From Dysgonomonas sp. Marseille-P4361 (GTDB taxonomy: Bacteria > Bacteroidota > Bacteroidia > Bacteroidales > Dysgonomonadaceae), in contig NZ_OPYL01000007.1 of NCBI RefSeq assembly GCF_900343125.1, forward strand, positions 1 through 64,000: a DNA stretch of 64,000 bases, given 5' to 3'. Both the position numbers and the translations under genes were made by a program. This document shows positions 7,707 to 64,000 of the stretch, piece after piece (position 1 is the stretch's first letter; each line of letters begins with the position of its first letter). The notes beneath the pieces are model-generated. The model saw only the letters and a program-made list of their open reading frames with translations. It did no database searches and was not told the DNA's origin.

Positions 7707-8930
7707 TTATTTTCTTTTCGAGCGTTTCTTAAATATTTTTTTGATCCAGAAATAGTAACCGGTGATAACAAAAACAGCTCCTAGTACAGACACTAGACAA
7801 GATAGAATCCGAGTAGTTATTCCACCCCAGGTTCCTACATGCACAGAATATATCCAACCTCTTATTTTACCAGATTTAGGTAAATCTTTATAAAGTTGTT
7901 CTCCGGTAATCTTGCCTGATCCTGAGTCGAAAGAGAAACGATCACTCCCTCTTGTATTGCCATATTTGGCTGTGGAAACTGTAGCTGAACCATCTTGAAT
8001 TGTTATGGAATTAAACTCTGCATAGCGATTTTGTAAGGAAGAAAGAACTTCATCCCAATGAACTGTATTTAATCCTTTTTTACCTCTTTCACCTTTCCCC
8101 CCTTGTTTCTTGACTTCAGACTTTTCTGTATCTTCTTGATTCTTTTTTTGTTCTTCGGCTAAAAGTTTTTCTGGGGAGTTATTCTTATTTTGATCTCCTT
8201 TTTGCTTTTCTGAAGATTCACTTCCTGAAACAGCTGCACTTTTAGATGTCTCTACCCCAAATACTGTATAGAAGGCGTCTCTATACCAGTTAAAAGACCA
8301 AGTCAGTCCTGTTAATGATAAAACAAGTAGGAGTAAAGCCGAATAAAAACCTCCAACTACATGCAGATCATAAAAGAAGCGACGCCATCCAGCGTTTGTT
8401 TTAATTTTTAGTCTGTGTTTTAAGCCTTTCATAGAACGTGGAGTCCATATGATAAGACCACTGATAAGTATAAATACAAAAAACAGAGTTGCATACCCCA
8501 TTAGTTCTTTGCCTAAAAACAAACTTCCATCTCGCTTATTAGTATCAAGAAGCCATCTATGTAGGCGCATTGTTTGCATAAAGAAGCCTTGACCATTACT
8601 TATACCTGTAACTTTACCTGTGTATGGGTCAATGAATGCAGCTGATTTCTTTCCAGGTAAAACCAATTGGTAAGTTCTTTCAGGGTCATCAGTAACTCTA
8701 ATCCCGTTAATTTTGACTGAGTCAGGTAGTTGTTCTCTTCCGAGCTTCATCAGATCCTCTATTGGAAGAGGTTTGTCTTTAACCTCTTCGACAAAATAAT
8801 GAGAAGGATAAGATAATTCAAGTATTTCATTTTCGAATACTAAAATAGCTCCACTTAAACAAGCTATTGCTATAATGATACCAAAGGGTATGGATAGCCA
8901 TAAATGAATTTTTGCAAATAATTTTTTCAT
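7707..8930 (-). CDS. xusC: PepSY-associated TM protein, XusC-like inner-membrane component
   Basis: A 407-residue inner-membrane protein with four predicted helices: about 10-32, 145-165, 195-215 and near 375-398. The first helix is followed by a PepSY periplasmic domain. The family includes XusC of Bacteroides thetaiotaomicron and reductase-like proteins linked to siderophore iron release or inner-membrane transfer. Position as last gene of a TonB receptor, DUF4374 lipoprotein operon supports the XusC assignment. Odd feature: the large periplasmic loop carries a Lys/Glu/Gln-rich low-complexity segment of about 50 residues (SSEKQKGDQNKNNSPEK onward, near 238-290). Its ATG overlaps the stop of the upstream esterase gene by 4 bases (ATGA). 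Confidence 0.8.
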   Translation of the reverse strand: MKKLFAKIHLWLSIPFGIIIAIACLSGAILVFENEILELSYPSHYFVEEVKDKPLPIEDLMKLGREQLPDSVKINGIRVTDDPERTYQLVLPGKKSAAFIDPYTGKVTGISNGQGFFMQTMRLHRWLLDTNKRDGSLFLGKELMGYATLFFVFILISGLIIWTPRSMKGLKHRLKIKTNAGWRRFFYDLHVVGGFYSALLLLVLSLTGLTWSFNWYRDAFYTVFGVETSKSAAVSGSESSEKQKGDQNKNNSPEKLLAEEQKKNQEDTEKSEVKKQGGKGERGKKGLNTVHWDEVLSSLQNRYAEFNSITIQDGSATVSTAKYGNTRGSDRFSFDSGSGKITGEQLYKDLPKSGKIRGWIYSVHVGTWGGITTRILSCLVSVLGAVFVITGYYFWIKKIFKKRSKRK

Positions 8931-9757
8931 TTGTTATATAATTGCTTGAGCCCATCATAGATTCCCGGGATACCAATAGTCCCGTGATTCTCTTCAGGAA
9001 ATAATTTCGTTACGAAAAATAGGTTCTTTGCTTTAGGTAATATTGTATTGAAAAATAGTTTTGCATTTTCGACATGAACATCATTCCTCTCTTTGCGTTC
9101 TTTCGAAGCAATAGCTATATATAGATCCTTCCCTTCAAAACTTTTTTGAGAAAAGATTGATTTAGCTTCTTCCATAAATGAGCCGCCATTCCACCATAAA
9201 CTGGGATCGATGATGATATATTTATCAAAATCAACAGTATGTTTAAGAAAAGTATTAAGGGTGAAGAGTCCTGCATAGGAATGCCCAACTAAGGTGTTCT
9301 TTCCATTAGTCTTATATTCTGATTGGATTTTATCTCGTAATTCTTCCGTCAAAAATTGATTGAATCTTTCGCTACCTCCACCTTGAGGTGTTTCGAAAAA
9401 TCCGGGCTTTCCGTTTCTTCCTATTGTAGATGCTACTGGTGTCATATCCTTTGTCCGGTCTTTACTGATAACTCCTACAATGATAGACTCTGGTAGATAT
9501 TTATTCTTGCTTGACGAAATAGTTTTGCTGATTCCTACTAAAGAATGAAAAAACAACTCTCCATCAAGTAAATAGATTACAGGATAGGAGAGCGTATCAG
9601 CAGGATTATAATTATCGGGTAAATGTACCCAAAAGTCTCGCTCTTCTTGTAGAATGTTAGAATATATAGAATACTTTTTACCGATTGAAATATCCTCCTG
9701 ACTCCACAGGGTTAGTGGGAGTAGGAGGAATATTAAAAAGAGGTACTTCTTAGTCAT
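8927..9757 (-). CDS. Secreted alpha/beta esterase (IroE/Fes-like, PF00756 type)
   Basis: A 276-residue protein with an N-terminal signal peptide (KKYLFLIFLLLPLTLWSQ), so periplasmic. The nucleophile elbow GHSYAG places Ser160; a His in ENHGT near the C terminus and an acidic residue in YIIIDPS or the later strands complete the triad. It resembles the esterase family that includes IroE and Fes, which open the trilactone backbone of enterobactin-type siderophores. Its place between the DUF4374 lipoprotein gene and the PepSY gene of a siderophore operon points to hydrolysis of imported ferric siderophore to free iron. It could act on other esters; the context is the main argument. Confidence 0.75.
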   Translation of the reverse strand: MTKKYLFLIFLLLPLTLWSQEDISIGKKYSIYSNILQEERDFWVHLPDNYNPADTLSYPVIYLLDGELFFHSLVGISKTISSSKNKYLPESIIVGVISKDRTKDMTPVASTIGRNGKPGFFETPQGGGSERFNQFLTEELRDKIQSEYKTNGKNTLVGHSYAGLFTLNTFLKHTVDFDKYIIIDPSLWWNGGSFMEEAKSIFSQKSFEGKDLYIAIASKERKERNDVHVENAKLFFNTILPKAKNLFFVTKLFPEENHGTIGIPGIYDGLKQLYNK

Positions 9758-9784
9758 TTATATTGAAGAACTAAAAGTGTTTCC

Positions 9785-11194
9785 TTACTTAGACGCTGTG
9801 ATTGCGGCTAACTTTCCAACACCGCTTATTTGATCAGCCTTAACTGTTATGCCTTTTGTTGCAACAGCAGTCTTGATGTCTATTTTGTAAATTGCAGGGT
9901 CTTGGTCTTTGACTGACACAGCAATATAAGCCAAGCCATTTTCTGCATAAGGAACATTCCCGAAACCTTCAATGCTTTCGCCGGCAGGCATACCTGTTAC
10001 ATAAGTAAGTTTTTTGCTCTCACCATTATAGATCGCTAATTGGTTTCCTACAAAGCCTTTTTCTGTTAGAGGTCTGTCGTACATAATTAGTAGGAAATTG
10101 TCATTTCCTATATGCCAGCAGCGAAGGAACGATTTTCCTCCTGTTTGTTCTTCTAGATTGCAATAGTAGTTTGGATCAAACTCTTCTGTACCTGCTTTGA
10201 TACGAACAACACCGGCAGGTTTTGTTGTTTTTTGTACATCAGCGGTCATCGATTTAGCATAGCTCGGAGAGAATACATAGATGTCTCCGTTGTCAGCAGT
10301 CCAGATTGTTTGATAATATTGAGATTTGAAACGTCCACAAGCGTAGCTGATTTTATCAGTTTTTATCAGTTTTGGGTTTTCCAATTTTTCATCTTTATAT
10401 ATTGCTATATAAGCCTCGTCAGGATATTGAGTCCATTGCAGTTCGTCCTTTTTGTAAGAACTACTATTGCTTCCTCCGGCTTCTTTTTTTACAAGCTCAG
10501 GGTATTTTACGTATTTACCATATTCTTTACCTTCTTCCCTTTCAGCTTTTACTCCGTATTGGCTTAATCCCATTGGGATAGGAGCGGTAAAAATCTTTCC
10601 GTTAGACTCTAAGATACCTGCAAGAGTGACATATTCTCCATTTCCTAAGTAGTTTTCAGCACTGATCACATTGTCATTTATACTGAATTTATCTGTTGCA
10701 GCATCAAGATAAGAAACTAAAAAGCCTTTAGGTAAGTATCCGTTTTCGTCAGCAAGATCTGCACTAAGGTCACCAGAAGATGTAGAGATAATATAATTTT
10801 TGTAGATGCCATATGATGTGAAACGAGGAATCTTGTAAGTATAATCTCTTTTTTCAACTTTTCCGTTCGAATTTAATATGTATGAAGAAGACAATCCTGC
10901 TTCTCCTTGATTGTATACAAAGCGATATAGGTATTTATCTTGATAGAATATCCACTGATAAACACTTTCTGTTTCTAGTCCATTACCGACTGTTGTCAGA
11001 GCTCCTTCACTTAGGCTATTGGTTGTTAATAGATAGTTGGCTTCACCAACTCCGGCTGCTACAATATAGCTTGCTGCAACTTCTGTTTCTTCTCCATTAC
11101 CGTTCGGATCAATAGGTTCATTGTCACTACATGAAGTTAAAGCGAATGCAGCTAAGAAAAATGCGGCAAATGCTTTTACGAAGTTTTTTTTCAT
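9785..11194 (-). CDS. xusB: DUF4374 surface lipoprotein, XusB-like
   Basis: A 469-residue lipoprotein: signal peptide with lipobox ending in FALTSC (Cys22) followed by an acidic SDNEP motif that fits the lipoprotein export signal of Bacteroidetes surface proteins. The body has repeated beta-propeller-like blades ([34 protein letters not shown]), as expected for DUF4374. In Bacteroides thetaiotaomicron the DUF4374 protein XusB binds ferric enterobactin at the cell surface and works with TonB receptor XusA. The gene lies 47 bases downstream of the receptor gene and 27 upstream of the esterase gene. Confidence 0.82.
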
Positions 11195-11241
11195 AATGTT
11201 TGTTTTATGTTTAGTTAATATTTTGTATAAAAAAGGGATAA

Positions 11242-13659
11242 TTATTTTCCGAAATAAACACGTACTTTCCCATAAAAAGCTCTTCCTGCTTTCTGTAAAC
11301 TAAAATTGTCATATGTTTTTTCGTCTGTAAAGTTTTTACATTCGAAAGATAAATTATAGCGACCTTTTTGGATTCCGTAAGAAATAGTGATGTTGTGAGA
11401 AAACTGAGATGGTACTTCTTGCTTAGAATCTTTTGATCCTATGTTTTCGGCATAAAGAGGAAAGCTATGCAGATATAGATTGTCATAAGTGACAGTTAGC
11501 ATATTGTCTTTTCTTCCAAGTTTAGGCCAATAAAAAGAGACATCTGAATTAGCAAATTGATAAGGCGTATTAGGCATTCTTGCTCCATATCTTACATTTT
11601 CTTGATTGCTTGTGCTACTAGTTGTTTTAACGTTACTTCGAGCATTTACTTGAGAGAAACTACCTCCAAGGCTTATCCATTTTGAGAAACCATAACGAAC
11701 AGAAAGGTTGAATCCTTTAGTTTCCACTTTTGCATGATTTTCATAACCTGCACTCATTTTTCCTCCACTCAAACCTTGTAGCTTACGCTGTATGAAGTCT
11801 TTAGTATCTCGGTATACTATTCCTCCTTCTAAATATATCGAATGTTCTCCCATCGTATTGTTATAACTCAGGTTGAAATTGAAATTATTACTGTTTTCGG
11901 GTTTTATAGATATATTGCCGGTCTCTAGATCCTCATCTCCAAACATTTCATCGTTGGTAGGAAGGCGATATGTTTTTTCGTAAGACAATTTAGTCTGAAG
12001 AGACTTAAGGATATAATAAGTTCCGGCTACTCCATATCCGGTTGAGCTTACAGAATTGGTTGTACGAACAAACTCAGTTTGGTTGCTATTAACAGCTATA
12101 GGACCAGCAATGAACTGATTGTAATATTTTCCAAAAACAGAGATATTCCAATCCTCGGTAGGCATTAAACGGTATGATAAACCACTTATATTTTTTTTAG
12201 TTTCTTTCTTTATCGGATTTTTACCTGCTCCACCACCTAGTAGATCTTCATTGGTTCTAGAGAAAGAATTGGTAACATGATTAAGTGTAAATGTATGAGA
12301 TTCTCCTATATGATAATTCGCCGTAAAAGTACCGTTCCAATTATTGTTGTCGGATCGTATGTCTTGATATTTTTGTTCTCCGGGCATTTTATTCGGACGT
12401 GGACGACTTTCTCCATACCAATTGTACTGTAGGAGAGTCGTATCTACATTGTTTGAAATATTCTTATTATAATTAGCTGTTAATAAAATATCCAATCCTT
12501 TTAGTAGGTTTCGCTTATTATATTCCAGTGACGGCATGATAGAATGACCTTTCCTATATTTACCACCATAAACAATTTCTTGTTTTACTCCATTTTGAAT
12601 CTCTTTGTACATCTGAGAATATGTAAACCCAAACATTAACCGATCTGCCCATTTTTTTCCTACAATCCCTATCTTACCGGAGATTGCTTCGTTATGGAAG
12701 TTGTCGTGAAAACGTTTAACACGTTCTATCTTTTTTTCGTTTATTACACTTGTTTTACCGTCCTCATTGAAAATTTCGACAGGAGTATTTATATAATAAT
12801 TATTGTCCGAATAATTTTGAAATGCATTTACTTCATAAGTTAATCCATTTTCGAATGTTTGTCCGAAGTTTACATAAGACTTATGAGTGTTGAATGAACC
12901 GTAAGAATAAGATGCATCAATAAACTTTTTTTGAGGGATCTTCTTTGTTACTACATTTATTACACCTCCTATGGCATCGGTACCAAATCCTACAGGAACA
13001 ACTCCTCTATAAACTTCGATGCGTTCTGCATAATTTGCAGGAATATTGTTTAATCCGAAAGAACTACCAACACCCTCTTGAGGAACACCATCGATGAAGA
13101 TCTTAATATGTTTTCCGCTGAAGCCATCCATCATAAGGTGCATATCTGAACCCACTCCGCCTGATTCTCTCACCTTTAGACCTGGAGCGCGGGTTAGTGC
13201 ATCACTCAGACTTTGTGTTGAATTTTGGAGAGCTTTGGTATCTATACCTACTGCATTATAAGCCGAGCGATTTAGCCTACTTATACCGTTCGATTCTACA
13301 GTGACTTCACTAAGAGCTTCTACCTGGGGAGATAACTTTATATCAAGTTGAATATTTTCGTTTTGTTGAGATAGCTGAATATTTCGTTCAACCGTTTGAT
13401 ATCCTATAGCACTTACAACAAGTGTATACTGTCCGGTAGGTGCATTGAATTTATATTGTCCACTTTGATTAGTAGAAGAACCATGGTTAGTTCCTTTTAG
13501 GTATACTGTAGCATAATCGATAACTCCCTGCTCTGTAGAGGATATTTTTCCCGAAACAATAATATTTGTACTGTGTTGGGAATATAGAGGTACAATAGAT
13601 GGGATTAATAGAATAAAATAAACAGATAATCTAAGCGAAAGAATTTTGGTAAATTTCAT
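11242..13659 (-). CDS. xusA: TonB-dependent siderophore receptor, XusA-like
   Basis: An 805-residue outer-membrane receptor. Signal peptide at 1-27; a carboxypeptidase-regulatory-like domain at about 33-110 ([20 protein letters not shown]); plug domain at about 125-235 with the motifs [19 protein letters not shown] and [27 protein letters not shown]; then a beta-barrel ending with VRVYFGK and terminal aromatic/Lys. It is shorter than SusC proteins and is of the siderophore class. First gene of the iron-uptake operon (receptor, binding lipoprotein, esterase, PepSY protein). It is probably iron-repressed, but no convincing Fur box was found; a palindrome abuts the predicted promoter. Confidence 0.88.
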
Positions 13660-13687
13660 TTATCAAATAATAGTTAAATTAGGTTTG

Positions 13688-13719
13688 CAAATTTCGAAAG
13701 AAAGGCATTCGATTGCAAT
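13688..13719 (-). promoter_or_regulatory. Candidate promoter of the xus operon
   Basis: On the minus strand ATTG (13719-13716), a 20-base spacer and GAAATTTG (13695-13688) fit TTTG-N20-TAnnTTTG with a mismatch in the first -7 base. Predicted start about 13682, 23 bases before the xusA ATG. Confidence 0.45.
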
Positions 13720-13735
13720 ACCTATTTCGAGGTAT
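13718..13735. promoter_or_regulatory. Inverted repeat abutting the xus promoter
   Basis: ATACCT-ATTTCG-AGGTAT is a 6-base inverted repeat overlapping the -33 box of the predicted xusA promoter. A further ATACCTA half site lies at about 13748-13754, beyond an ATGATCAT palindrome. It may be an operator for iron or siderophore control; the binder is unknown. Confidence 0.35.
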
Positions 13736-13934
13736 AATGATCATGAAAAATACCTATATCTTATTATTTTTCTCTATATAATTCTCTTTTGTATAAAAGA
13801 TTATAAGAGAGAATGAGTCTATCTGTTTTTCTAGAGGACAAACTTTTAGATGAGCTCTTTTATATTTCAAAATATATTCTGCCTAATTTATCTGATAAAA
13901 AAAATATTGGTCTTATCATTTTTATTTATCATGT

Positions 13935-13965
13935 GTTGTAAAACATAAAAAAATATATAGATTTG
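13935..13965 (+). promoter_or_regulatory. Promoter of the poly-Cys leader ORF and SusC/SusD transcript
   Basis: GTTG (13935-13938), a 19-base spacer and TAGATTTG (13958-13965) match the Bacteroidetes -33/-7 consensus, the -7 box perfectly. Predicted start near 13970, so the transcript carries about 43 bases before the small ORF at 14013 and about 315 before the SusC gene. Confidence 0.6.
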
Positions 13966-14012
13966 CAAAATACACTAAAAAGGTGTTTAAATCATATTAA
14001 AAAAGAATCAAG

Positions 14013-14147
14013 ATGAAAAGAGATTTTAAACAGCAGCAGGTAAATCAGCCACCATCGGCTCAGTTAGTAACCAATTATTCAATTTTATCAACAACCATCT
14101 CTACTGTTTCTTCTTCTTTCCGAATGTGTTGCTGTTGTAAGCAATAA
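14013..14147 (+). CDS. 44-residue leader peptide ending in a poly-Cys run (candidate attenuator ORF)
   Basis: ATG 14013 to TAA 14145-14147 encodes 44 residues: a polar Gln-rich start (MKRDFKQQQVNQPPSAQ), a Ser/Thr-rich middle and the end FRMCCCCKQ, with four consecutive Cys codons (TGT TGC TGT TGT) three codons before the stop. There is no signal peptide, lipobox or zinc-binding spacing. It begins about 43 bases after a consensus promoter and ends 137 bases before the SusC start, on the same strand, with no terminator between. Position and composition are those of a leader peptide read to sense charged tRNA-Cys. Short ORFs with terminal poly-Cys tracts act as cysteine-responsive attenuators in mycobacteria; use of the same logic here is inference. 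Chance ORF is the main alternative. Confidence 0.6.
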   Translation: MKRDFKQQQVNQPPSAQLVTNYSILSTTISTVSSSFRMCCCCKQ

Positions 14148-14197
14148 GTATATATTATCAGAAAGAGCAATTCTTTTACTAACCTCACCAAACCGAG

Positions 14198-14264
14198 AAT
14201 TGTTCCAAACAATCAAATAAATTATTTAATAACAATTGTTCCACTATAATTTAAATTAGTGGAA
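14198..14264 (+). promoter_or_regulatory. Leader repeats with mutually exclusive helices
   Basis: AATTGTTCCA occurs twice (14198-14207, 14234-14243). AACAATT at 14231-14237 can pair with the first copy, while TTCCACT (14239-14245) can pair with AGTGGAA (14258-14264), about 20 bases before the SusC start. The TTCCA of either copy could take TGGAA at 14260-14264. No U-run follows, so if it works it would act on translation or Rho rather than as an intrinsic terminator. Confidence 0.35.
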
Positions 14265-14284
14265 TACTAATATGATATTATAAA

Positions 14285-17200
14285 ATGGGAAAAAAAGTAT
14301 TTTTATTCTCCATTCTCTGGGCTATTAGTGTATTTACACTTCAGGCTCAAGTTGTAAATTTATCGGGTAAAGTACTTGATGATAATGGAGAAACTATAAT
14401 AGGAGCTATAGTAGTTCATAAAGAGTCAAATGTTAAAACAATAACCGATTACGATGGAAATTTCTCCCTTCCTAATATTCCGTTGAATTCTGTAATAACT
14501 GTTTCATATTTAGGTTTTGAAACAAAGGATGTAACTGTAGATAAAGCAGATATTTCAATCGAATTGTCCTCAAAAGATAGTGAATTGGACGAAGTGATTG
14601 TTGTCGCTTACGGTACGGCATCTAAGGCTGGTTATACAGGTTCTGCGTCGAGTGTAAATAAAGATAAGATTTCACAATCGCAGGTTAGTAGCGTATCCCG
14701 TCTATTGCAAGGTGCAGCTTCTGGTATACAATCTATTGCATCTTCGGGGCAGCCGGGATCTGATGCCTCAATATATATCAGAGGGGTAGGATCTATCAAT
14801 GCTTCAAGTACGCCTTTGTATATTGTTGATGGAGTTCCTTTCGAGGGGAATCTTAACTCTATAAATCCAGCAGATATTGAGTCAATAAGCGTATTAAAGG
14901 ATGCTGCATCTACGTCAATATATGGATCACGTGCCGGTAATGGACTAATAGTTGTAACAACAAAGCAGGGGAGTAAAAATAAAAAAGTAGCAATAGATGC
15001 TTCTTTCAGATATGGAGTTTCTTCCAGAGCAGTTGGCGATTACCAAAAAGTATCTACAGATGATTATTTTAAATTGTATTGGGAGGCGCTTCGTAATCAA
15101 GAATTATATACAAACGGAAGGACTCCTGAAGCTGCAGCAGCTTATGCTTCTAATAATATCATTCCTTTATTGGGTATAAATCCTTACGGATCGGCATATC
15201 CTATTCCGGTAGGTCTTGATGGAAACATTGTCTCTGGGGCTACTCCTCTGTGGGATGATAACTGGACTGATGAATATACGCAAGACGCTAGTCGTACAGA
15301 AGCACAAATAAGTCTTTCCGGTGGAGGAGATAAAAGTAATTACTATATTTCTTTGGGATATTTAAACGATGAAGGTATTGCCATTGCTTCAGGTTTTAAA
15401 CGTTATAATGGAAGGATTAATTTTAATACGGATATTAAACCCTGGCTAAGAGTATCTACGGGGGTAGCTCTTAGTCACTCAAAGCAGGATGCTCCTCAAG
15501 GACAGGATAGTAATCTGGCTAACTCATTGAACTTTGCTCGTATGATTCCTAACTTTTACCCTATATGGGAAAGAAATGGCGATGGCTCATTTAAGGCAGA
15601 TCCTATATCCGGAGATCGAATTATAGACTATGGTAATTACAGACCATCAGCAGCTAATCCTCGTTACAATCACTTAGGTTCATCGCAATTCGATTTTTCT
15701 AGAGTATTACAAGAAATAGCTTCTATTAGGTTTTCTGTAGAAGCTGATCTTACAAAGAACCTTACTTATAAGGCTTCAGCAAATATTGATTATACAAATA
15801 GAAATAATCATAATTACACAAATCCAGTATATGGAAGTGGATCTTATGACGATAACCCAGGGAGTGTAAGCAAGTACAATTATAAAACAATAAACTTTAC
15901 AGGAAATAATTTATTAACCTATAAGACGGTTCTTAATGAAGATCATAATGTGAAATTGCTAATTGGTCAAGAGTATAATGAGTATAATACAAGCAATATT
16001 TATGGCTCTCGCGAAGGTTTCCCTTTGTTGGGCTTTTATGATCCTATTGCAGCAAGCACTTTAGTTGATTTCTCAGGATCTTCTGATCAATATAAGTTAT
16101 TGAGCTTCTTTGGTAATGCTGAGTATAATTACAACCATAAATATTATGGTTCGGCTTCGATTCGTCGTGATGGTTCTTCCCGATTTTCACCAGAGGCTCG
16201 TTGGGGTACATTCTGGTCTGTAGGAGCTTCTTGGAGAATAAATGAGGAAAACTTCTTGAGAGATGTGCGTGAAGTATCTAAGCTAACATTGAGAGCTAGT
16301 TACGGAGGACAAGGAAACGATAATATAGGATCGTACTATGCTTATAAGGCACTGTTCAATGTGAAGAATAATTTAGGAGAATCAGGTTTTGTATCTTCAA
16401 CATTAGAAACAAAAAAACTGAAATGGGAGACAAATCTTAATCTAAATGTTGGTCTTGATTTTGGTTTCTATGATAATCGAGTATCCGGTTCGTTCGAGTT
16501 CTTCAATCGCCAATCTAAAGATTTATTATTCGCTATGCCTAAGCCTCTTTCTACAGGATATTCAAGTTACTGGGCAAACATCGGTGCTTTACGAAATAGG
16601 GGTTTTGAATTTAATCTATCATTCACTCCTATAAAAACACAAGACTGGCAGTGGTCTGTAAATTTGAACGGAACACACTATAAAAATGTAATAACAGAAT
16701 TACCACAGGAAGAAATTATCTCAGGAGATAAATTACTGAAAGTAGGAAACTCGATATATGATTTCTTTTTGGTAGAATGGGGTGGGGTAGATGCTGAATC
16801 GGGTCTTCCTCAATGGTATAAAACAGATGAAAATGGGAACAGAGTATTAACTCAGGTATATAAAGAAACAAATAAAGAAGCAGGTAAACCTGAACATCGT
16901 ATAAATGCTGGTTCAGCATTACCTACGCTATCCGGAGGTTTTGGCTCTAATTTGCAGTTCAAACGTTTCGAATTATCAGTTCTGTTCGCTTATCAGATAG
17001 GAGGTAAAATCTATAATGGAGATAAAATCTCTATTCTTCATAATGGAAGTTCGGCGGGTAGAGCAATGTCAATTGATATGTTGGATAGATGGACCCCTGA
17101 AACCCCAAATGCAAATATTCCACGTTTGCAAACTATAAATGCAAATGCATGGACAAGTAGTTCTACGCGCTTTTTGATTGATGCAGACTATCTGCGTCTT

Positions 17201-17407
17201 AAAAATATAACATTGGGTTATACTCTGCCTAATAGTATTACAAATAAACTTCAGATAAACAGTCTGAAAGTATATGCTCAGGCGGAGAATCTCTGGACAT
17301 TGTTTGATGAAGAAGGTATTGATCCTGAGCAGACTATTGGAGGTTCAACTTATTTTAGATATCCGGCGATGAAAACGATTTCATTTGGCTTGAATTTATC
17401 ATTCTAA
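14285..17407 (+). CDS. SusC/RagA-family TonB-linked outer-membrane transporter
   Basis: A 1040-residue TonB-dependent transporter that imports an unknown ligand together with the following SusD lipoprotein. Signal peptide ends at about 22 (FTLQAQ); carboxypeptidase-like domain at 25-100 (LSGKVLDDNGETIIGAIV); TonB-box-like DEVIVVAYG at about 105; plug to about 230 with YIRGVGSINASSTPLYIVDGV and SIYGSRAGNGLIVVTTK; barrel ending AMKTISFGLNLSF. No N-terminal STN signalling domain is present, so ECF/anti-sigma control is not indicated. It lies behind the poly-Cys leader ORF, and no glycoside hydrolase or protease accompanies it, so a small-molecule ligand, perhaps sulfur-containing, fits better than a glycan. 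Confidence 0.9.
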   Translation: MGKKVFLFSILWAISVFTLQAQVVNLSGKVLDDNGETIIGAIVVHKESNVKTITDYDGNFSLPNIPLNSVITVSYLGFETKDVTVDKADISIELSSKDSELDEVIVVAYGTASKAGYTGSASSVNKDKISQSQVSSVSRLLQGAASGIQSIASSGQPGSDASIYIRGVGSINASSTPLYIVDGVPFEGNLNSINPADIESISVLKDAASTSIYGSRAGNGLIVVTTKQGSKNKKVAIDASFRYGVSSRAVGDYQKVSTDDYFKLYWEALRNQELYTNGRTPEAAAAYASNNIIPLLGINPYGSAYPIPVGLDGNIVSGATPLWDDNWTDEYTQDASRTEAQISLSGGGDKSNYYISLGYLNDEGIAIASGFKRYNGRINFNTDIKPWLRVSTGVALSHSKQDAPQGQDSNLANSLNFARMIPNFYPIWERNGDGSFKADPISGDRIIDYGNYRPSAANPRYNHLGSSQFDFSRVLQEIASIRFSVEADLTKNLTYKASANIDYTNRNNHNYTNPVYGSGSYDDNPGSVSKYNYKTINFTGNNLLTYKTVLNEDHNVKLLIGQEYNEYNTSNIYGSREGFPLLGFYDPIAASTLVDFSGSSDQYKLLSFFGNAEYNYNHKYYGSASIRRDGSSRFSPEARWGTFWSVGASWRINEENFLRDVREVSKLTLRASYGGQGNDNIGSYYAYKALFNVKNNLGESGFVSSTLETKKLKWETNLNLNVGLDFGFYDNRVSGSFEFFNRQSKDLLFAMPKPLSTGYSSYWANIGALRNRGFEFNLSFTPIKTQDWQWSVNLNGTHYKNVITELPQEEIISGDKLLKVGNSIYDFFLVEWGGVDAESGLPQWYKTDENGNRVLTQVYKETNKEAGKPEHRINAGSALPTLSGGFGSNLQFKRFELSVLFAYQIGGKIYNGDKISILHNGSSAGRAMSIDMLDRWTPETPNANIPRLQTINANAWTSSSTRFLIDADYLRLKNITLGYTLPNSITNKLQINSLKVYAQAENLWTLFDEEGIDPEQTIGGSTYFRYPAMKTISFGLNLSF

Positions 17408-17428: not shown

Positions 17429-18886
17429 ATGAAAACATTAAAATATATATTAGCTAGTGTAACTCTCCTGATACTCTTAAATTCATGTGACTTAAATACT
17501 GAGCCTGTTGATGCCGTTCCTGATTATATCGTATTTGAGAATGCCAAAAATGCAGAGAAGGTGCTTAATGGGACTTGGTCGTATTTGATGGATACTTACT
17601 TTACATATCAAAACCCGGGGTGGAAAAGCCTTCTGTTGACGAGTGATGCTATGGCGAATGATGTCGCCCTTCAGCCCGGAAAGTATGGATATATCACCCA
17701 TTATTCATTTTCTAATATAAATGATTCTAAGTCAACTACAGGGCGTGCAATCTGGACGCTTGCTTATAAAGGAATTGATAATGCAAACCACTTGATCACG
17801 AAGATAGATGATGTACCAGGTGATCAAGATTTAAAAACGAATATAAAAGCTCAGGCTTATGCATTAAGAGGGTATTTGTATCTAAATCTTGTAACGTTTT
17901 ATTCGCATGCTTATAAATATGATCCACAAGCACTTTCTGTTCCTATTTATACTGAACCATCTGCTGTTGAAACAGCAGGGAATACAAAAGAAACAGTAGA
18001 AGCTGTATATAAAAGAGCAGAAGAAGATTTGCTGGAAGCTTATAATTCTATTGGAGACTATAAAAGGGGGGCAGCTAAGCATAAATTTGATAAGAATGTT
18101 GTAGCAGGTCTTTTAGCTCGTTTGTATCTGCAAAAAGAAGAGTGGGGAAATGCCCAAAAGTATGCAGCAATAGCTCATGAAGGGTATTCATGGATGTCAA
18201 AAAATGAATACTTAAATGGCTTTAATGATAGAGCAAATAATGAATGGATATGGGGACATGGACAACAATCGGATCAATCAGTAGCTAGTTATAGTTTCCA
18301 TTTTCAGGATGTCTCATCATCATCATCTTATTATTATAGTTTCATGGTAGATCCTTATTTTCAAGATTTTTTTGAAGAAGGAGACGTCCGAACAGAACTA
18401 TTCGCTTGGGATACCCTACGGTATAAGGGAGGCTTGATGTATAAGAAATTTAAATTCAGACCTGATAATACGGGAGACATTGTTCTACTTCGTAAAGCAG
18501 AAATGGTTTTGATAGAAGCTGAAGCATATGCCGAATTGGAAAAAAAGTCTTCTGCAATTGAAAAGCTTGATGAATTGAGAACAGCAAGAGATGCAAAAAC
18601 TCCAGACCTTTCTAGTTTGAATAAAAAAGACCTTGTAGAAGAAATTTTGAAAGAGCGCCGGAAAGAATTATTTGGAGAAGGGTTTGGTTTATATGATCTA
18701 AAGCGTAGACAAAAAGCTGTAAGCCGTAAGGAAGTGAAAGAAGGGAATTTTGTCCCTGATACAAAAATTCAGAAAAGAGGACATACCGTGTTTAAATTTA
18801 CAGATAAAACAGAGTTTTCAGCAAATAGCAATTATTACCTGTTTGCAATTCCTGATTCTGAGATTACGAATAATCCAAATCTGTAA
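17429..18886 (+). CDS. SusD/RagB-family nutrient-binding lipoprotein
   Basis: A 485-residue surface lipoprotein that forms the lid of the preceding SusC transporter. Lipobox LILLNSC gives Cys20; the DLNTEP stretch after it is the acidic surface-export type. TPR-like helices include IKAQAYALRGYLYLNLVTFY (about 140-160) and VVAGLLARLYLQKEEWGNAQKYA; the C-terminal region has the family motif LRKAEMVLIEAEAYAELEKK and EILKERRKELFGEG..LYDLKR. The closing FAIPDSEITNNPNL is typical of SusD. Spacing to SusC is 21 bases and a strong terminator follows, so the pair ends its transcript here. Confidence 0.9.
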   Translation: MKTLKYILASVTLLILLNSCDLNTEPVDAVPDYIVFENAKNAEKVLNGTWSYLMDTYFTYQNPGWKSLLLTSDAMANDVALQPGKYGYITHYSFSNINDSKSTTGRAIWTLAYKGIDNANHLITKIDDVPGDQDLKTNIKAQAYALRGYLYLNLVTFYSHAYKYDPQALSVPIYTEPSAVETAGNTKETVEAVYKRAEEDLLEAYNSIGDYKRGAAKHKFDKNVVAGLLARLYLQKEEWGNAQKYAAIAHEGYSWMSKNEYLNGFNDRANNEWIWGHGQQSDQSVASYSFHFQDVSSSSSYYYSFMVDPYFQDFFEEGDVRTELFAWDTLRYKGGLMYKKFKFRPDNTGDIVLLRKAEMVLIEAEAYAELEKKSSAIEKLDELRTARDAKTPDLSSLNKKDLVEEILKERRKELFGEGFGLYDLKRRQKAVSRKEVKEGNFVPDTKIQKRGHTVFKFTDKTEFSANSNYYLFAIPDSEITNNPNL

Positions 18887-62341: not shown

Positions 62342-64000
62342 TTATCTCTCTTCGCCGAAGATACTACCATAGCGATGGTACTCATGTGCAATACTTTGCT
62401 CTTTCAGATAATGCAGTAATTCTATTCGACCTTCGACAAGAGGCTTTTCTGAAGCAATATGCTTGCCTAGTTTTGCCGCATGATTATATATCGAATCAGA
62501 GATATCTGTAGAGCATGTTCGTATCCTTTCGTATTTATCCATGTCCTTAATGAATGTTTCTTCATCTTGAACAACTATGTTAGCACCTAATATTGTCGCT
62601 GTAGCCTGCTCTATAAATGGGAGTTTCTTGTCATCGCCAGATATACTTACAGTAATAGGTGTTTTGGCTATATGAGCGGCTAATATAACAAGAAGGACGT
62701 CGGATAACTCATCATTTTCAACCCGTAAAACGATATTTTTTAGAGGTAAATAGCGGAATAAGTTTTCTTCTCCGTAAAGACGATTGACATCTCTCTCTTC
62801 TGAAAACTCAACACCCCAGGCTGTCTTATAATTTTCAAAAGCGTAATCTAGACGAGCTTTCTCCTTTTCATCGGAAATGAAATCGGTTAGAGGAGATTTT
62901 GATGATGAAGCTGGAATTGATCCTTTTTCAGTTATTTCAACGAAGCAAGTCACATAGTTCGGGCCACCGGCTTTTATTCCGCCACCAAAGGCAGATCGTT
63001 TCATTCCTCCAAACGGTTGTCTGTTAACTATTGCACCAGTTATTCCTCTGTTTATATATAAATTACCAGCTTCGATCTTATTTTTCCATATTTGTATTTC
63101 CTCTTCATTCAAGCTTTGTAGTCCTGCTGTAAGTCCATATTCTGATGAATTAGCATATTTGATACCTTGTTCTAAATCGTCAATGCATACAACTGATAAT
63201 AGAGGAGCGAATAATTCATTCTTGAAAATAAAGCTTTCAGGTTTAACACCCCATTTTACGGTAGGCTTTAAGATGTACTTTTTCTCATCAACAAATTCCG
63301 GCGCAACAAGCCATGATTCCCCTTCTTCCAAGTTGTTGATAGCATGAAGTAACTTGTCATTTTCATTCGTTATCATAGGACCCACCATATTCATCGTATC
63401 CCAAACACTACCGGTACGCATGCTTGTTACAGCATCTTTTAGTTTCAGTTTGAATGTCTCGTCGTTGTATATTTTCTTATCCAGCAACAATAACGAACAT
63501 GCAGAACATTTTTGTCCGGCATTGCCAAAGGCAGAGGCTACAATGTTGAGGATGGCATGATCCTGATCTCCATAGCCCGTTAATATAATCGCATTTTTAC
63601 CCCCGGTCTCTGCAGATAGAGGGGTTCTTGGACTATTCTCCAATAGTCTGAATGCAGTGTCAGTTCCTCCCGTCAAGATAATGTGTTTGATTGCAGGGTG
63701 AGCTGTCAGGCTGTTGAGAGAAGATCTGTCGGATGGGCAAACTACTTGTAATGCCTCTTTAGGTACTCCAGCATCCCAAAAGCATTTAGCAAACTCCCAC
63801 GCAATAGGAAGTGCTACAGTTGCCGGTTTTAGAATAACTGTATTGCCTCCGGCTAAAGCAGAGACAACTCCTCCTACAGGGATAGCCAACGGGAAGTTCC
63901 ATGGTGGAATAACAAGAATTACACCTTTGGGAGCAATGGAAATTGTTTCTAGCTGATCGAACTGTTTCATTGAGATAGGATAGAAGCGACAGAAATCAAT
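62342..64000 (-). CDS. L-glutamate gamma-semialdehyde dehydrogenase, C-terminal part (proline catabolism); continues past the window edge
   Basis: The frame is open from 64000 (IDFCRFYPIS precedes the internal Met at 63970), so at least 553 residues of a longer protein are present. It oxidises glutamate semialdehyde to glutamate with NAD. ALDH marks: PPWNFPLAIPVGGVVSALAGGNTVILKP, catalytic Glu in ETGGKNAII, catalytic Cys in AGQKCSACS, and the closing RQPFGGMKRSAFG. About 190 further residues follow the ALDH fold, as in Bacteroidetes bifunctional PutA-type proteins. Whether a proline dehydrogenase domain precedes it cannot be seen here. Confidence 0.9.
   Translation of the reverse strand: MDFCRFYPISMKQFDQLETISIAPKGVILVIPPWNFPLAIPVGGVVSALAGGNTVILKPATVALPIAWEFAKCFWDAGVPKEALQVVCPSDRSSLNSLTAHPAIKHIILTGGTDTAFRLLENSPRTPLSAETGGKNAIILTGYGDQDHAILNIVASAFGNAGQKCSACSLLLLDKKIYNDETFKLKLKDAVTSMRTGSVWDTMNMVGPMITNENDKLLHAINNLEEGESWLVAPEFVDEKKYILKPTVKWGVKPESFIFKNELFAPLLSVVCIDDLEQGIKYANSSEYGLTAGLQSLNEEEIQIWKNKIEAGNLYINRGITGAIVNRQPFGGMKRSAFGGGIKAGGPNYVTCFVEITEKGSIPASSSKSPLTDFISDEKEKARLDYAFENYKTAWGVEFSEERDVNRLYGEENLFRYLPLKNIVLRVENDELSDVLLVILAAHIAKTPITVSISGDDKKLPFIEQATATILGANIVVQDEETFIKDMDKYERIRTCSTDISDSIYNHAAKLGKHIASEKPLVEGRIELLHYLKEQSIAHEYHRYGSIFGEER

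Follow-up and report, generated by a model that had tools for sequence, protein, structure and literature searches.

A short open reading frame ending in cysteine codons upstream of a SusC/SusD operon in Dysgonomonas: a candidate cysteine-sensing leader

Gut and environmental Bacteroidota very commonly use SusC/SusD pairs for import across the outer membrane, and for many of these pairs no ligand is known. In the window, by which we mean the whole 64-kb stretch of Dysgonomonas sp. Marseille-P4361 DNA analyzed here, a run of codons for one amino acid, cysteine, is present in a short open reading frame (ORF) between a promoter-like sequence and the first structural gene of such a pair. This raises the question of whether the ORF is a leader that senses cysteine supply and, if so, how it would act on the transporter operon behind it.

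The leader ORF and its operon

13935 to 13965, plus strand: Bacteroidetes-type promoter-like sequence, recognized by its sequence, with GTTG at 13935-13938, 19 nt, and the -7 element TAGATTTG at 13958-13965
14013 to 14147, plus strand: leader ORF of 44 codons, MKRDFKQQQVNQPPSAQLVTNYSILSTTISTVSSSFRMCCCCKQ, read from the sequence as MKRDFKQQ...SSFRMCCCCKQ*
14285 to 17407, plus strand: SusC/RagA TonB-dependent transporter (TIGR04056, 852 bits, above the cut-off)
17429 to 18886, plus strand: SusD/RagB lipoprotein (PF07980, PF14322)

The 44-codon ORF described in an earlier note on this DNA is exact in the sequence: its last codons read TTC CGA ATG TGT TGC TGT TGT AAG CAA TAA, and FRMCCCCKQ is its C-terminus. 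The run of four Cys codons adjoins the stop codon as described, except that two codons (AAG CAA) and not three separate the last Cys from the stop. The promoter reported upstream is likewise present as far as its sequence tells, the Bacteroidetes consensus being TTTG-N19-TAnnTTTG, although the distance from the -7 element to the ATG is 47 nt instead of the 43 or so given earlier. No terminator had been noticed between the leader and the SusC/SusD genes, and our scan agrees, with no terminator-like site in 13300-14700 (mean of 0.4 in shuffled sequences).

Searches of Pfam and NCBIfam gave no match to the 44-residue peptide, and searches of Rfam at the gathering threshold gave none in the window or at ten related loci. 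When the peptide was compared with 25 genus-level genomes, the window's own included, it matched itself and gave eight weak matches, with no convincing homologue. Five of the eight weakly matching loci (L002-L005 and L008) were inspected, and none was a leader.

The TIGR04056 receptor followed by a SusD-family lipoprotein identifies the operon as a SusC/SusD pair. It consists of these two genes only and carries no sulfur gene, so that the ligand cannot be read from its gene content. By eye, no Cys leader was seen upstream of the window's own MetY gene. On the minus strand, divergent genes occupy 7707-13659 and encode a TonB receptor, a DUF4374 protein, an esterase and a PepSY-TM protein; the best NCBIfam match of this receptor (11242-13659) is a myxochelin-type siderophore receptor, below the cut-off. 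Genes resembling this divergent set, as judged by eye, also lie near the leader operon of locus L144.

Recurrence of Cys-ending leaders in Bacteroidota

To assess how often such an ORF occurs upstream of other genes, we defined a leader-like ORF as one of 15-65 codons with at least three Cys among its last eight residues. The window and the neighbourhoods of 12 relatives provided 13 upstream regions with a leader and 67 without; as the neighbourhoods had been picked for a leader or an orthologous SusC, only the 67 non-leader regions count as background. None of these contained a leader-like ORF within 350 nt, and one did within 450 nt. This one, ending ..CFHMRMCC before a second SusC gene of L148, itself resembles a further leader. 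The earlier claim that a Cys4-ending leader would be improbable by chance is upheld by these counts, and we consider a chance origin of the window ORF unlikely from the sequence comparison.

A leader-blind comparison was made with SusC relatives retrieved by SusC similarity alone. Nine SusC orthologues of 52-100% identity, the window's included, had upstream DNA, while L011 (64%) was cut at its start and left out; the 52% limit was chosen after inspection of the data. A Cys-ending short ORF precedes four of the nine, or three by the strict count of at least three Cys in the last eight residues: besides the window, these are L016 (62% identity, MKRIFVIDLFNTPSHIQGNNYFMCINGCCRH), L020 (53%, MKIAYSAYKHLVVFFSNKKNDNHANTSVISMHMRMCCC) and, by the looser criterion only, L010 from a Mediterranea metagenome-assembled genome (52%, MNQKSFHMYMMCNCPAADGG). 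No such ORF was found upstream of SusC in L015, L017, L018, L019 and L021. With the window excluded, the relatives at 52-63% identity give two of eight (strict) or three of eight (loose) against 0 of 67 controls (Fisher p = 0.010 or 0.0008). In two SusC relatives at 48% identity (L022 in genome G020 and one in G010), the leader stands before a binding-protein gene that starts the operon. The Cys run is thus not a private accident of the window, since the leader-blind comparison finds it again in SusC relatives. Conservation in orthologous leaders, on which the earlier note had staked its interpretation, holds in part: four orthologues share the run and five lack it. Judging from these sequences, the leader element turns over fast and is clearer across paralogous operons than inside one orthologue group, and this fast gain and loss is the main result opposing strong conservation.

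Sequence surveys showed that ORFs of 16-60 codons ending in Cys codons recur in Bacteroidales. At the family level, 101 genomes were searched for Met-Cys-Cys-Cys followed closely by a stop, and at least 79 had a match. Most matches, here and in the order- and class-level surveys below, lay inside long ORFs, in another frame or on the other strand, and were dropped as chance. We inspected 70 stretches, consisting of 30 loci and 40 fetched stretches (one from outside the listed matches, two with out-of-frame places). Among them were ten free-standing ORFs of at least 15 codons, including the window's, and all ten precede a gene for SusC (window, L048, L049, L104, L106 and L120) or for a PstS-like periplasmic binding protein (L055, L066, L109 and L119), gene names being assigned partly by eye. 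The five long ones from the first 30 loci had no enclosing long ORF in their neighbourhoods. The search for Cys-ending short ORFs before the SusC genes of relatives, which the earlier note had proposed, therefore turned out in its favour: such leaders recur before SusC/SusD.

At the order level, CGAATGTGYTGYTG was found at 57 places in 53 of 384 genomes, and 48 of these places were inspected. At seven of them the ORF is free-standing and has its run close to the stop; six of the seven precede a MetY gene (L201, L207 and L222), a binding-protein gene (L224 and L225) or the window's SusC; the seventh, L193, is a three-codon MCC ORF with no clear target. A survey for Met-x-Met-Cys3 in 393 genomes, in which mainly 30 loci and three others were inspected and matches were discarded when the peptide did not look like a leader, yielded a further MetY leader (L223) and independently recovered the L201 leader as L088. 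At the class level (395 genomes, 30 of 36 places inspected), four related leaders of the MYNK..MRMCCCC type before a PhyH-like dioxygenase gene and one leader (L329) before a gene for an outer-membrane-like protein were found, with names assigned by eye. When MetY genes themselves were taken as the starting point, 22 loci were parsed and three short ORFs were flagged, one of which was accepted (L170) and two of which were weak (L176 and L177), so that a clear Cys leader stands at only one of the 22.

Several further places were set aside or noted in passing. L228, L234, L240 and L325 are free, with a long tail after the Cys run or a position inside shorter genes, and were judged to be chance; L105 (MCCCV), L137 (MCCC) and L193 (MCC) are free-standing and too short to judge. 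L312 was flagged as lying inside an ORF, supposedly because the PhyH-like frame is open upstream. By eye, the MYNK..MRMCCCC(C) leaders of L332-L335, which come from two families outside Bacteroidales, precede PhyH-like dioxygenase, CDP-alcohol phosphatidyltransferase-like and GtrA-like genes. The leader of L336, MKTTHSDQIKSG..CLRMCCCMC, stands before a gene for an outer-membrane-like protein, with an Rrf2-like regulator gene just downstream on the other strand (also by eye).

The peptide body differs widely among the leaders and is shared only by close pairs, whereas the last codons are kept at the nucleotide level. In the window the conserved element is:

14121 to 14138, plus strand: CGA-AUG-UGU-UGC-UGU-UGU (Arg-Met-Cys4), delimited by leader comparison

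Among the leaders found without using CGA, 12 have an Arg just before the Met-Cys run, and in all 12 this nearest Arg codon is CGA, against a background of 8.6% among 2453 Arg codons (p = 1.6e-13 on the assumption of independent leaders, which does not hold for close pairs). With the second L148 leader the count becomes 13 of 13, the window included, and CGAATG also occurs in two MetY-leader candidates found via the operator described below (L265 and L266). L010, L153 and L223 have no nearby Arg and lack the motif. The Cys run usually follows a Met, in many cases one that belongs to M-R-M or M-x-M, and the Cys residues persist while their number (2-8 in the leaders inspected) and spacing vary. 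The end of the window leader closely matches that of L145 in nucleotides (TTTCCGAATG..TGTTGCTGTT). In an open-frame test, frame +1 was open in none and frame +2 in two of 19 leaders; this test is biased because the leaders had been selected for an open frame.

The operons behind the leaders of relatives are richer than that of the window. In L146 and L147 the leader heads the genes for SusC, SusD, a CBS-domain PLP enzyme and cystathionine gamma-synthase, in this order; a second operator comes next, ahead of genes for a binding protein, an M14 peptidase and MetQ. In L146 the PLP enzyme is of the cystathionine beta-synthase/cysteine synthase type (TIGR01137, 380 bits, below its cut-off), cystathionine gamma-synthase scores 516 bits (cut-off 513), MetQ 380 bits (cut-off 374) and a divergent MetN-like gene 491 bits (cut-off 500); the second operator leads to a second leader, ending RMHCC. 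The genes of L147 were named from their 71-86% identity to L146 over four compared proteins. In L148-L150 the leader is followed by a binding protein, SusC, a SusD-like protein and a DUF4369/thioredoxin-like protein (the last confirmed for L149). After the thioredoxin-like gene, L148 and L150 carry genes for a peptidase (an M20-family one in L148) and for a symporter of the sodium:dicarboxylate type (confirmed for L148), and a further L148 leader, the ..CFHMRMCC ORF, has CGA before the second SusC gene. L144 and L145 show, by eye, leader, SusC, SusD-like protein and symporter. The controlled genes in relatives thus include the cystathionine beta-synthase type, cystathionine gamma-synthase, MetQ and MetY, while the window has SusC/SusD only. 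Taken from their sequences, the gene contents of these operons fit a regulator of cysteine supply. A cysteine or sulfur sensor is the natural reading because the leaders recur before SusC/SusD, PstS-like, MetY and transsulfuration operons.

RNA features and a putative operator

14049 to 14192, plus strand: C-rich, G-poor rut-like stretch around the Cys run, with 22 C and 6 G in the 75 nt before the Met codon and 9 C and 4 G in the 45 nt after the stop
14127 to 14146, plus strand: possible hairpin of Cys codons with stop-proximal bases (14127-14133 with 14140-14146), predicted, local z -1.2
14165 to 14265, plus strand: possible hairpins in the gap before susC, GAGCAATTCT/AGAATTGTTC (14165-14174/14196-14205) and another around TTCCACT/AGTGGAA, with no U-run after them

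An intrinsic terminator was absent from 17 of the 19 leaders scanned, including the window's. The only convincing case is L010, where a 12-bp terminator hairpin with a T-rich tail follows the leader; L222 gave one weak match within the Cys codons themselves. A role for Rho is suggested by the flank, which is rich in C and poor in G. The excess of C over G in the best 120 nt was compared with 57 control regions and was significant for the 12 family-level leaders (p = 2e-5) and for all 19 (p = 0.002). For the window copy it is modest, the excess of 14 being reached by eight of the 57 controls, and in several distant leaders it is small, absent or negative.

The whole gap of the window folds better than its shuffles (z = -3.0), and hairpins that contain the Cys codons, with the stop in or near the loop, were predicted in L266 (local z -4.9), L144 (-2.5) and L145 (-2.4). 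Over 24 leaders no shared fold was evident, as the mean z was only -0.8 locally and -0.6 for the gap. In L144-L147 a similar hairpin directly precedes the susC ATG. A hairpin near the susC start was also noted in L022, L024, L025, L027 and L030, between binding protein and susC; the loop sequences of the two groups (about TCCGACGGCAATTGG in one, about CCAATTGCNGTCGGA in the other) are nearly reverse complements.

A palindrome, TACC-N8-GGTA, lies upstream of 11 of the 12 family-level leaders, all except the window's, and ends 22-23 nt before a -7-like box; this layout presumably indicates a class II activator of the CRP/FNR kind. The window does contain a copy:

13688 to 13734, minus strand: operator TACC-N8-GGTA at 13719-13734, 23 nt before the -7-like box GAAATTTG, facing the divergent TonB receptor gene (11242-13659)

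Its layout is that of the relatives' leader operons, but it points toward the TonB receptor, and the leader promoter has no operator at the usual place. The window holds a second TACC-N8-GGTA, at 62365, which is not accompanied by a -7 box in this arrangement.

When the composite site was searched alone in the 101 genomes, 77 sites in 36 genomes were found, compared with six for the reversed control. At the 31 sites inspected, the next genes, named by eye, encode SusC (4), a binding protein (3), MetY (3), CysK (2), an iron-type ABC permease (4) and others. A Cys-ending short ORF is present at seven of the 31, one of them doubtful. Such ORFs stand before two of the four SusC, all three binding-protein, one of the three MetY and neither of the two CysK genes. 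In other families the operator stands before MetY and CysK, mostly without a Cys leader. In many Bacteroidales the operator followed at 21-25 nt by a -7 box was observed, before MetY in L163, L164, L169, L181, L184, L222, L265 and L266 (names by eye unless from the MetY search), before CysK in L176 and L179, and before the iron-type ABC permease in L267 and L269-L271 (by eye). The operator is not enriched in the window's genome, since ATACC-N8-GGTAT occurs at six sites against eight control sites and the composite site with up to two mismatches at 33 against 45; three composite sites there have one mismatch, the window's copy among them.

A candidate mechanism, its alternatives and its meaning

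Considering all the evidence, we think it quite likely that the window ORF is a cysteine-sensing leader, whichever mechanism it uses, and the leader probably turns the transporter on when cysteine is short. That it is a cysteine-starvation-sensing leader of the SusC/SusD operon acting through Rho is the explanation we prefer, with roughly even confidence. The mechanism that we infer comprises leader translation, slow decoding of CGA, cysteine sensing, ribosome stalling and a role for Rho. A ribosome would translate about 37 codons, pass the rare CGA and the AUG, and reach the Cys codons just before the stop. If Cys-tRNA were plentiful it would finish and leave, exposing the C-rich, G-poor RNA that surrounds the stop and extends past it, whereupon Rho (or, in one relative, the intrinsic terminator) would end transcription. 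With Cys-tRNA short, it would stall on the Cys codons, shield this RNA and open the local hairpin, and the polymerase could continue into susC and susD.

A stalled ribosome might instead refold the gap of 80-220 nt, either through a terminator and antiterminator or by freeing the susC start, as in translational attenuation. The Cys-containing L010 leader (MNQKSFHMYMMCNCPAADGG) with its terminator hairpin, the pairing of Cys codons in L266, L144 and L145, the hairpin before the susC ATG in L144-L147 and the stable fold of the window gap are consistent with such refolding, which we nevertheless regard as somewhat unlikely, given that 17 of the 19 scanned leaders, the window's among them, lack an intrinsic terminator, that L222 offers only a weak one and that the mean fold scores over 24 leaders give no evidence of a common structure. 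Sensing of Cys-tRNA itself would be dispensable if the CGA-AUG pair or the nascent peptide stalled ribosomes on another signal, such as sulfur or methionine state, redox or translation stress. The fixed CGA wherever an Arg is present and the usual Met before the run would suit a leader of this type; the persistence of Cys despite its varying number and spacing and the sulfur amino acid genes targeted in the clearest operons argue against it and make it unlikely.

Two further explanations deny the ORF a regulatory role. It could be a stretch of TCT/TGT simple sequence left open by chance: its 3' half has low complexity, the window's genome contains TGYTGYTGY 548 times and five of nine SusC orthologues have no Cys-ending short ORF. 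Set against the absence of leader-like ORFs within 350 nt in 67 controls, the consistent gene context (ten of ten), the conserved CGA and the close nucleotide match to the L145 leader end, this explanation is very improbable. The ORF could also encode a functional small Cys-rich protein, either metal-binding or the precursor of a modified peptide, that is co-expressed with the transporter. A Cys4 tail could bind metal, and the divergent operon with its siderophore-type TonB receptor adjoins the locus; yet the peptide body varies widely while the last codons are kept at the nucleotide level, and no modification enzyme was seen among the ORFs around the window locus or in the relatives' neighbourhoods, which were mostly judged from N-terminal residues. 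Such a role is improbable in the extreme.

The proposed cysteine-starvation leader resembles several known systems. In classical trp, his and ilv attenuators, regulatory codons are clustered within a leader ORF upstream of the related operon. The window leader likewise places a run of candidate regulatory codons before an operon; it differs in that the window has no intrinsic terminator/antiterminator, and the ORF has more codons and carries the run at its extreme end. In the Rho-dependent attenuation of the E. coli tna operon, a ribosome held at the end of the tnaC leader ORF masks a rut-like site next to the stop. A ribosome held at the end of the window leader would, by our proposal, mask a rut-like site in the same position, although tnaC answers an excess of free Trp via an arrest peptide whereas the proposed signal in the window is a lack of charged tRNA.

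Short leader ORFs with Cys codons near the stop are described in the available text of Seliverstov et al. (2005, PMC1262725) for mycobacteria and other Actinobacteria, upstream of cys operons or a cbs gene; according to the same text they have no conserved terminator, and pyrimidine motifs and Rho were proposed to act there. The window leader shares with these polycysteine ORFs the Cys codons near the stop and the absence of a detected intrinsic terminator. In several relatives the leader also lies upstream of sulfur genes, as in Actinobacteria, while the window operon holds SusC/SusD only. Unlike the actinobacterial targets, those in Bacteroidota include outer-membrane SusC/SusD operons and MetY, and the CGA-AUG that usually precedes the Cys run sets the Bacteroidota leaders apart. 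A 2020 paper by Canestrari et al. calls the actinobacterial polycysteine ORFs leaderless in its title. A promoter-like sequence ending 47 nt before the ATG of the window ORF predicts a 5' untranslated region, a point against a leaderless ORF here.

Leader peptides as such are not new for Bacteroidota, because two transcriptome studies point to them: the available text for Flavobacterium psychrophilum reports clues to leader-peptide attenuation upstream of amino acid biosynthesis operons, with cysteine not named there, and that for B. thetaiotaomicron reports short ORFs in long 5' untranslated regions reminiscent of leader peptides. A literature search, whose coverage excluded most subscription journals and preprints, brought up neither a cysteine leader in Bacteroidota nor one on a TonB/SusC transporter. 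Within the parts of the literature searched, cysteine-run leaders are known in Actinobacteria, and a Bacteroidota cysteine leader before SusC/SusD is without precedent.

We tentatively put forward, as a possibility short of probable, that these leaders form a class-wide, ribosome-based sulfur sensor of Bacteroidota. Such a sensor would be a leader ending CGA-AUG-(UGY)2-8 in which the rare CGA sets the timing of the ribosome at the Cys run and acts as a gate for Rho. It would couple SusC/SusD, PstS-like, MetY and transsulfuration operons to the charging of Cys-tRNA, in many cases with an activator at TACC-N8-GGTA as a second layer. The CGA-AUG-UGY signature makes the leaders searchable and directly testable by a simple reporter. 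A cysteine-reading leader would extend control by cysteine codons from Actinobacteria to another phylum and would mark which SusC/SusD pairs serve sulfur nutrition; the window transporter, for its part, may take up a sulfur-containing compound or peptide. The class-wide sensor, if real, would define a set of SusC/SusD pairs dedicated to sulfur nutrition rather than to glycans.
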